In this document: positions 3-31,439 of the stretch, one piece after another
Layout of the letters: the number at the start of each line of letters is the position of its first letter
How positions within the stretch are numbered: position 1 is the first letter of the stretch
Origin: a virus
Reading direction: 5' to 3' (one strand)
IMG/VR virus record: IMGVR_UViG_3300042881_002526
Span: 1-31,439 of that record
Length of the DNA: 31,439 bases
Translations under genes and position numbers: made by a program
Notes under the pieces: model-generated
Told to the model about the DNA's origin: nothing
The model's database searches: none
What the model saw: the letters and a program-made list of their open reading frames with translations, nothing else

Positions 3-326
3 GAGGTGTTCGACGAGCAGCAGGCGCTGCGCCTCATCGAGGACCCGTGGGAGTCGGTCATCGGTCTCTGGCTCGCGCAGCCTGAGATCACGATTCAGTC
101 GGACACCGACGGGATCACGACGCACCAGGTGCTGCAGGATGCGATCAAGGTCGACCCCGCGAAGATGGACGAGCGAGGCATGCAGATGCGCGTCGCGAAG
201 GTCCTGCGGTCGCTCGGCTTTGTCCGGCGCGAGTGGAAGGCGGGCCGTAAATCCGGCTCGAGGTACGTCTACGTTCGGCAAAACGCCGTCGAGGTAGGGA
301 CCGGTGGGGACCGCGATGCCTTTTAA
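3..326 (+). CDS. VapE-family replication helicase-like protein, C-terminal part
   Basis: This is the 3' end of the gene that begins at 30284. Bases 1-150 repeat 31290-31439 in the same frame, and joining the copies gives one uninterrupted protein of about 443 residues. The visible part has no start of its own; reading from base 3 gives EVFDEQQALRLIEDPW and onward to a TTT-TAA end at 326. It lies C-terminal to the P-loop ATPase core seen at the other end of the window. Residues such as TTHQVLQDAIK and MQMRVAKVLRSLGF look like the small winged-helix-like tail common at the end of VapE/D5-type phage helicases (family knowledge). The last codons overlap the first copies of the GGTAGGGACC repeat, so the coding end and a putative origin are physically joined. 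It probably unwinds DNA during phage replication. Confidence 0.85.
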   Translation, partial: EVFDEQQALRLIEDPWESVIGLWLAQPEITIQSDTDGITTHQVLQDAIKVDPAKMDERGMQMRVAKVLRSLGFVRREWKAGRKSGSRYVYVRQNAVEVGTGGDRDAF

Positions 327-566
327 ATCAACGGCTTGCCCTACCTCGAAAAAGGTAGGGACCAAGGTAGGGACCGCTTTTTCGGAGCAGGATCAAGCGT
401 TTGCCCTACCTCGGCCAAAACGCCCGCGCGCGCCCACGTATGCGCGCGACGCGCGCGCCCCTGTACACATATTTGTGTGTGTAGGTAGGGACCTTGGGGA
501 CCAAGCTTATAGATCAGCCACTTACGGGGTCCCTACCTGGGCCCCACCTGTTGGGAGGTAGGGACC
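293..566. repeat. Iteron-like array of GGTAGGGACC, putative replication origin
   Basis: Five exact direct copies of GGTAGGGACC start at 293, 354, 366, 484 and 557. An exact inverted copy (GGTCCCTACC) lies at 528-537. Shorter inverted copies (CCCTACCTC) are near 339 and 404, and degenerate direct copies (GGTGGGGACC at 303, TTGGGGACC at 494) sit beside exact ones. Copies at 354 and 366 are 12 bp apart, about one helical turn. The array starts in the end of the helicase gene and runs to the start of the next gene. Direct repeats beside a replication helicase suggest an origin bound by an initiator; a transcriptional operator cluster is the alternative. Confidence 0.65.
421..483. other. Alternating CG tract plus ACACA/TGTGT hairpin inside the iteron region
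   Basis: The longest gap between iterons (376-483) holds a run of alternating C and G at about 421-460, of a kind prone to Z-form DNA, followed by a short AT-richer segment. In that segment ACACA (465-469) and TGTGT (474-478) are inverted around TATT. The remaining DNA from 327 to 567 shows no convincing gene: the open frame at 304-561 consists largely of the repeats read through. A GC block beside an AT-richer hairpin could serve as an unwinding element, but that is inference. Confidence 0.35.
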
Positions 567-567
567 A

Positions 568-894
568 GTGAATCGACAGCAATGTCTGGAGACGGCCGCC
601 GAGTGCGTGCTGAAAAACCGCGCCGCGGTGTACTCGCCGCCCGAGGATTCGTTCGGGCTCATCGCGAAGTTCTGGACGACCTACCTGTCGGAGTGCGGGC
701 CGCTCCTGGCCGCGCACGACGTCGCGGCCCTGCTGGCCCTGATGAAACTCGCCCGCGTGGCCCAGAACAGCGGCCACGTCGATTCCTGGGTGGATCTCGC
801 GGGCTATGCGGCGTGCGGGGTCGAGTGTGCGACTGCGGGCACGGTGGCCGCTGTGGCCGAGCCTGCTGAACTTGAAGGGTGGGCTGCGAAATGA
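568..894 (+). CDS. DUF6378-like phage protein
   Basis: A 108-residue protein of the type seen in many tailed phages of Gram-negative bacteria. Features I associate with the DUF6378 family are the start RQQCLETAAECV, a central YSPPEDSFGLIAKFW segment, then MKLARVAQNSGHVDSWVDLA and GYAACG near the middle. The paired acidic and histidine residues (PEDSF, GHVDSW) resemble MazG-like nucleotide-hydrolase helices, but a catalytic role is not shown. The start is GTG at 568, two bases after the last iteron; GGGAGG at 553-558 is a plausible ribosome site. It is the first gene of a run with ATGA-type overlaps reaching to 2966. Recognition of the family is from memory; its function is unknown. Confidence 0.7.
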   Translation: MNRQQCLETAAECVLKNRAAVYSPPEDSFGLIAKFWTTYLSECGPLLAAHDVAALLALMKLARVAQNSGHVDSWVDLAGYAACGVECATAGTVAAVAEPAELEGWAAK

Positions 895-3475: not shown

Positions 3476-4015
3476 ATGGGCAGTAGGGGACCGGCACCCA
3501 AACCGGCGGCCATCCACCTGCTGAACGGGAACCCCGGCCACCGACCCCAGGCTGCGCCCGGCAGCGTTCCTGCGCCGGCCACGGCGATTCCGGACGCACC
3601 CGAGTGGCTGCTGGGCGAAGCGCGGGCCGAGTGGGAACGAATCACGCCGGAGCTGGAAAAGCTCGGGCTCGTCTCGCACCTGGACGTGGCGCACCTGGCG
3701 GGCTACTGCCAGGCCTATGCGCTGATGGCCCGCACCGGTGCGGAAATCAAGCGGCTGCAGGGCGAGGGCGAAGTTGACCCGGTGATGCCGGATCGCATGC
3801 GCGGCCTCGTCGATCGCACGCCGTCCGGCTACAAACAGATCAGTGCGTTGATGCAGGTCTATAACCGGGCCTGCGAGTCGATGCGCCAGCACGCTGCGGA
3901 GTTCGGGCTGAGCCCGAGTGCACGCATGCGCGTGAAGCCCGACAGCAGTCAGGCCTCGCTGTTTCCGGACAGCGACCCGATGGACGCGTTCCTGAGGGCG
4001 ACCGGGGCCGCATGA
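3476..4015 (+). CDS. terS: Terminase small subunit, P27 family
   Basis: A 179-residue protein with the hallmark P27-type N-terminus SRGPAPKPAAIHLLNGNPGH, which is arginine/proline-rich and precedes the helical DNA-binding part. Then come PEWLLGEARAEWERITPELE and LGLVSHLDVAHLAGYCQAYA, both typical of Terminase_4 proteins. The C-terminus is a helical tail (SGYKQISALMQVYNRACESM) ending in LFPDSDPMDAFL. It recognises the packaging site and directs the large subunit to it. The ATG at 3476 has a very strong G-rich ribosome site. The end overlaps the large subunit gene by ATGA. About normal family length. Confidence 0.93.
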   Translation: MGSRGPAPKPAAIHLLNGNPGHRPQAAPGSVPAPATAIPDAPEWLLGEARAEWERITPELEKLGLVSHLDVAHLAGYCQAYALMARTGAEIKRLQGEGEVDPVMPDRMRGLVDRTPSGYKQISALMQVYNRACESMRQHAAEFGLSPSARMRVKPDSSQASLFPDSDPMDAFLRATGAA

Positions 4016-5679
4016 GCGACCGCACGACCGCCTACGCCCGCGACGTGGTCGAGGGCCGGGCGGTCGCGGGTCCGTGGGTGCGGCTGGCATGCCAGCGTCA
4101 CCTGCGCGACCTCGAGGAGGGCCCAGCACGCGGGCTGCGGTTCGACGTGCAGCTCGCCGCGCGGGCGATGGCGTTCATCGAATGCCTGACGCTGGCCGAC
4201 GGCCAGTTCGCGGGTGAGCCGTTCAAGCTCTCGCCGTTTCAGTCGTTCGTGGTGGGCAGCTTGTTCGGCTGGCTGGCGCCGGATGGTTTCCGCCGATTCC
4301 GCACGGCCTACGTCGAAATCGCGAAGGGCAACGGCAAGACACCGCTCGCTGCCGGCATTGCGCTGTACCTGATGCTCGCCGACGGCGAGGCGGGTGCGGA
4401 GGTCTACGCCGCGGCGGTCAGTCGCGACCAGGCGAAAATCTGCTTCCGCGACATCAAGCGTTTTGCCGAGGCCTCGCCCGCGCTGATGCGCCGGCTCGAG
4501 GTCAACGAACAGAACATCGCCTATCCGGCGACCGGCAGCTACATCCGGCCGGTGTCGTCGGAAGGGCGCGGCCTCGACGGCAAGCGCGTGCACGCGGCCG
4601 TCATCGACGAGCTGCACGAACACCCGACGAGTATCGTCGTCGACAAGATGCGCGCCGGCACGAAGCAGCGCCGCCAGGCGCTGATCTTCGAGATCACGAA
4701 CTCGGGCTACGACCGGCACTCGGTGTGCTGGGACCACCACGACTACAGCACGAAAGTGCTGCAAGGCGTGGTCGAAAACGACGCCTGGTTCGCCTATGTC
4801 GCGGCGCTCGACGAGGGCGACGACTGGCTGAACGACCCGACGTGCTGGGTGAAGTCGAACCCGAATCTCGGGGTTTCGATCACCGAGAAGTACCTGCAGG
4901 AGCAGGTCGCCGAGGCGCGCGACATGCCCAGCAAGCGCAACATCGTCGCCCGGCTGCTGTTCTGCGTGTGGACCGAGCAGTCAAGCGTGTGGATGCCGAT
5001 CGAGCACTGGGACAAGTGCGCCGTGCCGGTCGACCTCGAGGAGCTGCGCGGGCGGGAATGTTTCGGCGGCCTCGACCTCGCGTCGACGGCCGACATCGCG
5101 GCGTTCGTCCTGGTGTTCCCGCCGCTCGTCTACGGCGAGCGCTGGCACGTCGTGCCGCGGTTCTGGTGTCCGCGCGAGAACATCCGCCTGCGCGCCAAGC
5201 GCGACGGCGTGCCGTATGACCGCTGGGCCGACGAGGGCCTCATCACGGCGACCGAGGGCAACGTCATCGACTACGCCTTCATCCGCGACGCCATCCAGCG
5301 CGACGCCGAGCAGTTCCGGATCAAGGCCATCGCCTTCGATCGCTGGAACTCGACGCACCTGGTGCAGGAACTGCAGGCCGACGGCTTCACGATGATGGGA
5401 TTCGGCCAGGGCTTCGCCTCGATGGCGGCGCCCGTGCGTGAGCTGCAGAAATTGATCCTCGGCGAGCAGCTGGCCCACGGCGGGCACGCGGTGCTGCGCT
5501 GGATGATGAGCAACGTCGCCGCGCTGCAGGATCCGGCCGGCAACACGAAGTTCGACAAGTCGAAGTCGGGCGACAAGATCGACGGCCTCGTCGCGCTCGC
5601 GATGGGGCTCGGCATTGCAATCGCCGAAGAGGTCAAGGGACCGTCGGTGTACGAAACCCGAGGGGTGCTGACGCTGTGA
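4012..5679 (+). CDS. terL: Terminase large subunit (packaging ATPase/nuclease)
   Basis: A 555-residue HK97-type motor protein. The ATPase half has Walker A AKGNGKT at about 104-110 and Walker B AVIDELHE near 196-202. The nuclease half has GLDLAS at about 353-358, whose aspartate is the first metal ligand of the RNase H-like fold, a second conserved segment IAFDRWNSTHLV, and KIDGLVALAMGLG near the C-terminus carrying the last acidic ligand. It pumps DNA into proheads through the portal and cuts the concatemer. Full family length, no damage seen. Starts by ATGA overlap with the small subunit and ends with GTGA overlap to the portal gene. Confidence 0.95.
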   Translation: MSDRTTAYARDVVEGRAVAGPWVRLACQRHLRDLEEGPARGLRFDVQLAARAMAFIECLTLADGQFAGEPFKLSPFQSFVVGSLFGWLAPDGFRRFRTAYVEIAKGNGKTPLAAGIALYLMLADGEAGAEVYAAAVSRDQAKICFRDIKRFAEASPALMRRLEVNEQNIAYPATGSYIRPVSSEGRGLDGKRVHAAVIDELHEHPTSIVVDKMRAGTKQRRQALIFEITNSGYDRHSVCWDHHDYSTKVLQGVVENDAWFAYVAALDEGDDWLNDPTCWVKSNPNLGVSITEKYLQEQVAEARDMPSKRNIVARLLFCVWTEQSSVWMPIEHWDKCAVPVDLEELRGRECFGGLDLASTADIAAFVLVFPPLVYGERWHVVPRFWCPRENIRLRAKRDGVPYDRWADEGLITATEGNVIDYAFIRDAIQRDAEQFRIKAIAFDRWNSTHLVQELQADGFTMMGFGQGFASMAAPVRELQKLILGEQLAHGGHAVLRWMMSNVAALQDPAGNTKFDKSKSGDKIDGLVALAMGLGIAIAEEVKGPSVYETRGVLTL

Positions 5680-30123: not shown

Positions 30124-30287
30124 AGCGTGACCTGCGCAAGCCCAGCTACTGGACGCCCGAGCAGGCCGTCGGCTGGGGCCCGCGCATCGTCGAGCGCTTG
30201 CAGCGCGGCGAGGTCGTCGACTGTGCGGGCTTCCTGCTGAAGCTTGCGCCACAACAACAAGAACTCGAACTGAGGCCGACCCGGTGA
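30120..30287 (+). CDS. Small hypothetical protein upstream of VapE
   Basis: A 55-residue protein from GTG 30120 (GTGA overlap). RDLRKPSYWTPEQAVGWGPR, then IVERLQRGEVVDCAGFLLKL and PQQQELEL: a basic start, a W-x-P-E turn and a helix. No family known to me. It is placed directly before the helicase gene, with a GTGA overlap at its own end, so it may be a helicase or primase accessory; that is a positional guess. Confidence 0.5.
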   Translation: MKRDLRKPSYWTPEQAVGWGPRIVERLQRGEVVDCAGFLLKLAPQQQELELRPTR

Positions 30288-31439
30288 GCTACGAAGACGA
30301 AGAGTATCGCGCGGCAATGGCCGAGGACGGCACCGACTGGCAGTCGCTGCTACACCGGTCATCGCCGCCGAAGGACAGGCCCGACCTACCGGGCGCCATC
30401 AAGCCGACCATCCACAACGCGTGCCTGCTGTTGAGGTGGGGCCTCGAGGCGCACCGCTGGCTGAGCTATGACGAGTTTCTCGGCGAGCCCATTGTCAAAG
30501 ACGCGCCCTGGCCGCGCATGGGCGGCAAGGCCTGGACAGATCAGGACGCGCTCGACGCCAGGCATCGCATCAACTCGCAGTTCAACATCGACCTGCAGAC
30601 AGCACTCGTGCATGACGCGTGCGACATCGTCGCGCGCCAGAACCCGGTGCACCCAGTGCGCGAGTACCTGGCCGGACTCTCCTGGGACGGCAAGGTGCGG
30701 ATCAACACCTGGTTGATGGACTATCTAGGCGCCGACCAGCGCCACGGCGGCGACTGTCGGCGCTATCTCGGGCTGGTGGGCTCGTGGTGGCTGATGGGCG
30801 CCGTCGCGCGCGTGATGAAGCCGGGCTGCCGGTTCGACAACGTGCTGATCTTCGAGGGCAAGCAAGGCGCGTTCAAGTCGACGGCCCTGCGGATCCTCGG
30901 CGGCGAGTGGTTCCTCGATACGCCGATCATCCTCGGCGACAAAGACGCGTACCAGATGTTGCGCGGCAAGTGGCTCATCGAGCTCGCCGAGCTGGACTCT
31001 TTCAACAAGGCCGAAAGCACGAAAGCGAAGGCGTTCTTCTCGTCACCGGTGGACAGCTACCGACCGTCATACGGGCGGCGCTCGATCGACGTGCCACGGC
31101 AATGCGTGTTCGCCGGCACGACCAACGAGGAGGCCTACCTGCGCGACAGCACGGGCAACCGCAGGTACTGGCCGGTGTACGCGAAGTGCATCAAGCCCGA
31201 CGAGCTGAGACGCGACCGCGACCAGCTATGGGCCGAGGCCTACTACCGGGTGAAAGAGGGCGAGCCGTACTGGCCCGAGGACGAGCATCGCGACGCGTTC
31301 GACCAGCAGCAGACGCTGCGCCTCATCGAGGACCCGTGGGAGTCGGTCATCGGTCTCTGGCTCGCGCAGCCTGAGATCACGATTCAGTCGGACACCGACG
31401 GGATCACGACGCACCAGGTGCTGCAGGATGCGATCAAGG
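30284..31439 (+). CDS. VapE-family P-loop replication protein, N-terminal and core part (runs off the window)
   Basis: From GTG 30284 this frame stays open to the window end and continues in frame at base 151 (see 3-326); total about 443 residues. The N-terminal 110 residues are helical (LLLRWGLEAHRWLSYDEFLG). The middle has VHPVREYLAGLSWDGKVRIN, the classic VapE beginning. The Walker A loop is FEGKQGAFKST at about 190-200, the Walker B-like strand WLIELAEL follows at 230-237, and FAGTTNEEAYLRDSTGNRRY is the sensor/arginine-finger region. This is the virulence-associated protein E (PF05272) fold, used by phages as a replicative helicase-type ATPase. No primase domain is attached, and no other primase or polymerase is seen in the genome. 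Confidence 0.9.
   Translation, partial: MSYEDEEYRAAMAEDGTDWQSLLHRSSPPKDRPDLPGAIKPTIHNACLLLRWGLEAHRWLSYDEFLGEPIVKDAPWPRMGGKAWTDQDALDARHRINSQFNIDLQTALVHDACDIVARQNPVHPVREYLAGLSWDGKVRINTWLMDYLGADQRHGGDCRRYLGLVGSWWLMGAVARVMKPGCRFDNVLIFEGKQGAFKSTALRILGGEWFLDTPIILGDKDAYQMLRGKWLIELAELDSFNKAESTKAKAFFSSPVDSYRPSYGRRSIDVPRQCVFAGTTNEEAYLRDSTGNRRYWPVYAKCIKPDELRRDRDQLWAEAYYRVKEGEPYWPEDEHRDAFDQQQTLRLIEDPWESVIGLWLAQPEITIQSDTDGITTHQVLQDAIK
31290..31439. repeat. Terminal overlap with bases 1-150
   Basis: The last 150 bases repeat the first 150. Positions 25-150 are identical to 31314-31439. Within the first 24 bases four differ: 5 (G vs C), 7 (T vs C), 15 (G vs C) and 24 (G vs A). The overlap closes the helicase gene in frame, which supports a circular or circularly permuted genome of about 31,289 bp. 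Confidence 0.9.

Follow-up and report, generated by a model that had tools for sequence, protein, structure and literature searches.

Replication origins of PICI lie directly 3' of the rep gene and consist of two iteron sets around an AT-rich region, an arrangement described as 'shared by ... no other known bacterial replicon' (PMC6092414). In SaPI, the C-terminal domain of Rep acts on iterons directly downstream of its own gene (PMC7581432). The C-terminal domain of Cch2 has been shown to bind its repeats, and the putative SCCmec origin resembles the arrangement proposed here in that this helicase domain binds direct repeats just downstream of the operon (PMC7581432). Cch2 differs in belonging to another helicase family (Primase_Cterm/D5), in having only three iterons, and in that no second set is described (PMC7581432). 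Streptococcus phage Sfi21 carries its origin directly behind a helicase/primase gene, with repeats flanking a strongly AT-rich block; its record notes an origin of replication, a 302-bp non-coding region, and a phage inhibitory sequence. Origins of the lambda type combine iterons of the O protein with adjacent AT-rich DNA. There, the iterons are embedded in the O gene, and initiation is left to a protein other than a helicase.

The stretch of DNA analysed here, referred to as the window, comprises the 31,439 bases of IMG/VR record IMGVR_UViG_3300042881_002526. Behind its vapE gene lies an iteron array (292-566) that we consider, with a probability of roughly 85%, to be the replication origin of the phage, VapE-dependent and of the SaPI/PICI iteron type in a tailed phage. 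As in SaPI/PICI rep-ori units (SaPI origins; EcCICFT073), the putative origin is located immediately 3' of the initiator-helicase gene, which ends at 326. Two sets of short iterons again flank an easily melted region, here with a partly CG-rich central block, and the helicase shares family and fold with PriRep1 (7pds). The window differs from SaPI/PICI in its word, GGTAGGGACC, in the inverted copies present in both sets, in the position of the first iterons inside the helicase gene, and in representing a tailed phage rather than a satellite. A PICI as an element is a satellite using the capsid and tail of a helper, whereas the window encodes its own terminase genes (Pfam) and displays long ORFs where portal, capsid, and tail genes would sit; the comparison with PICI is confined to the origin module.

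Sfi21 matches the window in the placement of the origin behind the helicase and in the flanking repeats, but its helicase is of the D5/DUF5906 type and its word is GTAACTAA. Unlike lambda, the window has a helicase as its proposed initiator, and nearly all sites lie behind the gene encoding it. An iteron plasmid replicon (Rep_3/RepA type), in which a Rep_3-type winged-helix protein initiates and no helicase takes part, found no counterpart, with no Rep_3 match among the genes scanned and PF05272 VapE as the neighbour of the array. Likewise, the second distant repeat region (crr) of a P4-type origin (alpha, ori, and crr) is absent, with no exact iteron elsewhere in the genome. The preliminary description did not recognise the repeat as a described origin. 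This holds for the word, while the layout was already known from SaPI/PICI and from the annotated Sfi21 origin. The word is new, and the kind of origin is known. A search of the open-access literature found no paper joining VapE, phage, and iteron.

Six exact copies of GGTAGGGACC are packed in 274 bp, five direct (starting at 293, 354, 366, 484, and 557) and one inverted (528-537), as initially described, and none occurs in the rest of the 31,439 bases. The top 10-mer count per 274 bp is 6 in the window and 2-3 (maximum 3) in 100 shuffles. With two mismatches allowed, GGTAGGGACC is found 19 times genome-wide against 19.3 expected. Since this count is no higher than chance, the repeat signal resides in the clustering. 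The initial list of exact copies was correct, but the core is better defined as AGGTAGGG, with eight copies, five direct (292, 353, 365, 483, and 556) and three inverted (339, 404, and 531), and two inverted copies had been missed.

The left set (292-411) opens with an iteron AGGTAGGGACC at 292-302 (+), inside the coding end of vapE, followed by a degenerate iteron CGGTGGGGACC at 302-312 (+). Two further direct copies of AGGTAGGGACC occupy 353-363 and 365-375 (both +), the latter degenerate in the related IMG/VR genome L003. The two overlooked inverted iterons, both AGGTAGGGCAA, lie at 336-346 and 401-411 (-) and end in GCAA rather than GACC. The right set (483-566) contains AGGTAGGGACC at 483-493 (+), a degenerate TGGGGACC at about 495-502 (+), an inverted AGGTAGGGACC at 528-538 (-), a degenerate inverted AGGTGGGGCCC at 539-549 (-), and a last iteron at 556-566 (+), sharing bases with the Shine-Dalgarno-like GGAGG (554-558) that precedes the next gene. 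The three degenerate copies are of the form GGGGACC or GGGGCCC, and adjacent copies are spaced by 10-12 bp, approximately one helical turn.

Between the two sets, the central block (414-482) consists of a CG-rich alternating tract (about 419-462) followed by TGTACACATATTTGTGTGTGTA, in the same order as in relatives. Nearest-neighbour energies place the least stable stretch of the array, a putative unwinding element, at 464-513. These are the second-least-stable 50 bp of the genome, within the top 0.18% of positions. An AT-richer spacer at 503-527 separates plus- and minus-strand iterons and has diverged in L003 (ATATAGAACAACAGGTTAC). The alternating block and AT-richer stretch initially noted between the copies do both exist. 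By the standards of this genome, however, the alternation is unremarkable: its longest tract in the array measures 14 bp, against 17 bp elsewhere. Tracts of at least 16 bp occur in 18 of 158 relatives (versus 0). With such mild enrichment, the alternating purine-pyrimidine tract was rejected as a defining feature.

The least stable stretch of the whole genome (28271-28320) lies beside HTH regulator gene(s), carries a repeated AATAATCAC with an inverted copy, and is probably a repressor operator region. The GC skew, proposed earlier as a check, reaches its minimum at 30,683 in circle coordinates, which leaves about 0.9 kb between this point and the array. This position is consistent with an origin there, but the minimum is shallow, and skew was discarded as origin proof.

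The placement of the array relative to vapE depends on closing the window into a circle. Its last 150 bases match the first 150 (31290-31439 against 1-150) at 146 of 150 positions, with four mismatches, and the last 127 are exact. The 23 head bases containing the mismatches correspond to the version found in the IMG/VR relatives L001 and L003, and an exact overlap of 127 bases resembles the word length of an assembler. These two features make a circle of about 31,289 bp (about 31.3 kb), assembled from mixed strains, the likely structure. Closure nevertheless relies on an imperfect terminal overlap, which counts against the origin reading. The 5' part of vapE (30284-31439, +) runs off the contig end and continues at 3-326 once the circle is closed. 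This 3' part (+) encodes the C-terminal winged-helix domain and a disordered tail, VEVGTGGDRDAF, as judged from translation, terminal overlap, and a structure model. Because the window closes to a circle, the array begins within the last vapE codons. The preliminary description is upheld in placing the first copies in the coding end of the helicase gene, with the C-terminal residues VEVGTGGDRDAF encoded there. In L001 and L003, the junction of vapE, array, and DUF6378 gene is unbroken. The intact L003 homologue matches PF05272 (VapE) with an E-value of 4.5e-74, and the DUF6378 gene of the window (568-894, +) matches PF19905 (E 3e-26).

No primase or polymerase domain was detected among the window genes tested. 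In this the window is unlike its Pseudomonas relatives, whose proteins are longer. VapE had been called the only replication ATPase of the phage. Pfam searches on the genes tested, a partial check, agree in that the large terminase is the sole ATPase besides VapE. Directly upstream of vapE, L003 encodes a 290-aa ORF without a Pfam match (4132-5004), where the window has a 68-aa ORF instead.

Comparison with L003 indicates that the iterons have been retained while their surroundings changed. Leaving out the decayed iteron at 365, differences affect 1 of 85 columns across eight array sites, whereas the spacers differ in 31 of 149 (Fisher p 5e-6); with the decayed site included, 7 of 96 iteron columns differ (p 0.004). 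Eight of the nine sites downstream of vapE are nearly unchanged, and the spacers have diverged. An ORF running through the array (304-561, +) was rejected as a gene, since a 1-base deletion in L003 breaks its frame. At the vapE end, the DNA rather than the protein is probably the conserved element, since the encoded residues are predicted to be disordered.

VapE was modelled on the L003 protein, whose C-terminus is identical to that of the window, with 44 sequences in the alignment and a mean pLDDT of 85. A C-terminal winged helix is predicted, with helices at 351-360, 376-383, and 393-406 and wing strands at 409-414 and 423-428. The tail (431-443) has a pLDDT below 50 and is predicted to be disordered. 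In the PDB, PriRep1 (7pds) alone matches the A4 profile by sequence (HMM E 7e-86). By fold it is by far the top hit as well, with a Z of 30.6 and 392 residues aligned, spanning the VapE model from end to end and taking in the winged helix. The 7pds molecule name reads 'Similar to D. nodosus vapE'; from this name and the SaPI5 companion entry 7ola, we take 7pds to be SaPI1 Rep.

By analogy with the SaPI and Cch2 systems, which supply the steps beyond DNA layout and protein fold, VapE would act as initiator and helicase at once. Its C-terminal winged helix may bind the AGGTAGGGACC copies flanking the central block, and the VapE ring would then open the easily melted stretch around 464-513. Two hexamers would load at the array, replication would start there, and the forks would leave with the host polymerase. 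Host primase may also serve, given that the genes tested yielded no primase.

VapE loci were retrieved from IMG/VR and GTDB genomes by protein alignments, leaving out L088 as a query because of stops in its reading frame. This yielded 159 distinct loci, nearly all from Pseudomonas prophages or phages with 43-51% identity; being related, they are not independent. A repeat score of at least 8 within 1 kb of the vapE 3' end was reached in 96 of 159 loci and in none of 159 within-gene controls; a score of at least 6 was reached in 126 of 159 loci, and in 9 of 159 when a stretch within vapE served as control. The remaining 33 loci score below 6 and count against the origin reading. Absence of repeats from VapE relatives had been named as a refuting observation, and most relatives do carry an array there, though with a different word.

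The Pseudomonas words are GTGGGAC, GTAGGAC, or ATGGGAC, not GGTAGGGACC, with GGGGTGACC in Marinobacter phage PS3, TCAATGGGT in L090, and GGACATTG in L182. The elements keep their order, running from iterons through a CG/CA alternating block, an AT-rich block, iterons, and a spacer of about 25-40 bp to inverted iterons. Because words vary from genome to genome, these arrays would escape a search restricted to GGTAGGGACC. A search elsewhere for a GGTAGGGACC pair at a 12-bp step returned L001, a true relative, and L002, which matched by chance, and same-word searching was abandoned as a route to relatives.

The reverse search of IMG/VR with paired GTGGGAC identified 70 arrays among 80 stretches. 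Of these arrays, 57 lie 36-477 bp 3' of vapE, and the other 13 have no VapE on the fragment examined. In L281 (3731) and L283 (5286), arrays of GTGGGACAG occur with another type of primase-helicase (AAA_25 with Toprim or DUF3854) directly upstream. The habit of placing an array behind the helicase is thus not confined to VapE, and similar words appear to serve unrelated replication proteins.

A word-independent scan covered 13 whole genomes (the window, eleven phages, and one satellite), with each 400-bp stretch scored by the 8-mer most over-represented in it. In eight genomes, each with its own word, the densest repeat cluster overall lies no more than 0.5 kb from the vapE 3' end: the window, PS3, U5, QT1, Ted, IME1320, F4, and the satellite Javan608, a 7.9-kb streptococcal element without late genes. 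In Sfi21, the second-densest cluster coincides with the record-annotated origin (34487-34784), whose sequence has repeats on both sides of an AT-rich block. The Sfi21 protein is nonetheless D5/DUF5906 by Pfam, not PF05272 VapE, which counts against the comparison. Four of the 13 genomes scanned (P2559Y, M29, ep3, and LM0121) have no such cluster at vapE and also count against the origin reading. M29 and ep3 carry a second annotated helicase and may start replication differently.

Croceibacter phage P2559Y instead displays CCTAAGGC eleven times in a gene region and ATTGTTTA ten times in the intergenic record end (stretches 5051-5450 and 42751-43150), possibly an alternative origin or operator. 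Staphylococcus phage QT1 has annotated 40-bp repeats at the extreme vapE end (39941-39984), adjoining its iteron array. Overall, the same layout with a different word stands behind vapE in most VapE phages and satellites examined. The proposal that the array is the best origin candidate thus gains from clustering, layout, conservation in L003, and position behind vapE in many elements.

The best-surviving alternative, which we regard as unlikely, is an operator or late-promoter region whose repeats bind a phage transcription regulator, such as a nearby late-gene activator or antiterminator. In most Pseudomonas relatives, one late-regulator-like small gene separates vapE from the array, the array precedes downstream genes, and in the window the last iteron overlaps the ribosome-binding-like GGAGG. 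However, the array directly follows vapE in the window, PS3, L088, and L090, and it stays with vapE even in the streptococcal satellite without late genes. Moreover, no sigma-70-like promoter or terminator-like site was found in 200-700, and an operator leaves two sets around a low-stability block unexplained. Late-regulator-like small genes were seen in L017 (5145-5594), between vapE and the array as in other Pseudomonas elements, and in the window at 1416-1859, behind the array and without a Pfam or PHROG match.

Less probable still is that the small terminase, whose gene lies at 3476, about 3 kb downstream of the array, starts packaging here at a cos or pac site. In Sfi21, the annotated cos (40722) is 6 kb away from the annotated origin, the QT1 genome ends adjoin the terminase genes rather than the vapE array, and in F4 about 2.5 kb, counted through the record ends, separate the vapE array (about 2.4-2.7 kb) from the large terminase gene. 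A structured RNA or selfish palindromic repeat without a replication role is just as improbable: shuffled sequences fold less well than the single strand (z -4.5, DNA parameters), as is inevitable with inverted repeats, but there is no Rfam match to a known RNA family, the word is confined to the array within the genome, and position and layout stay while words differ between genomes. A BstA/aba element was also dismissed, having a different repeat in a different setting.

Among 159 loci with a typable word, mostly from Pseudomonas, residue 411 (L003 numbering, first wing strand) is Lys in all 63 GTAGGAC loci and Arg in all 96 GTGGGAC or ATGGGAC loci. It is the sole alignment column separating the word classes without exception, and the window itself combines Arg411 with the G-type base (AGGGAC). 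This pattern suggests a one-residue specificity code (K/R411), as a lead and not an established rule. The switch needs just one or two changes on the tree, too few independent changes for significance, so shared descent can explain the association. The C-terminal domain as a whole co-varied with the word no better than the ATPase domain did (partial correlation p 0.2), and this link was dropped as not significant.

A tentative extension, which we hold to be rather less probable than its opposite, is that VapE and origin form coupled word-reader pairs. Position and two-sided layout would be kept while the word changes, and single winged-helix residues would set the word (in Pseudomonas, Lys411 with GTAGGAC and Arg411 with [G/A]TGGGAC). 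If so, the replicons of related phages and satellites would exclude one another, and a copy of the origin could decoy a phage reading the same word. Such natural pairs would lend themselves to testing initiator specificity and origin-based phage interference. For unstudied phages and prophages, the findings offer a rule for locating origins, namely the densest repeat cluster just behind vapE, whatever its word. Tailed phages from several phyla would thereby share a layout described as unique to PICI, with a bearing on the ancestry of satellite replicons.
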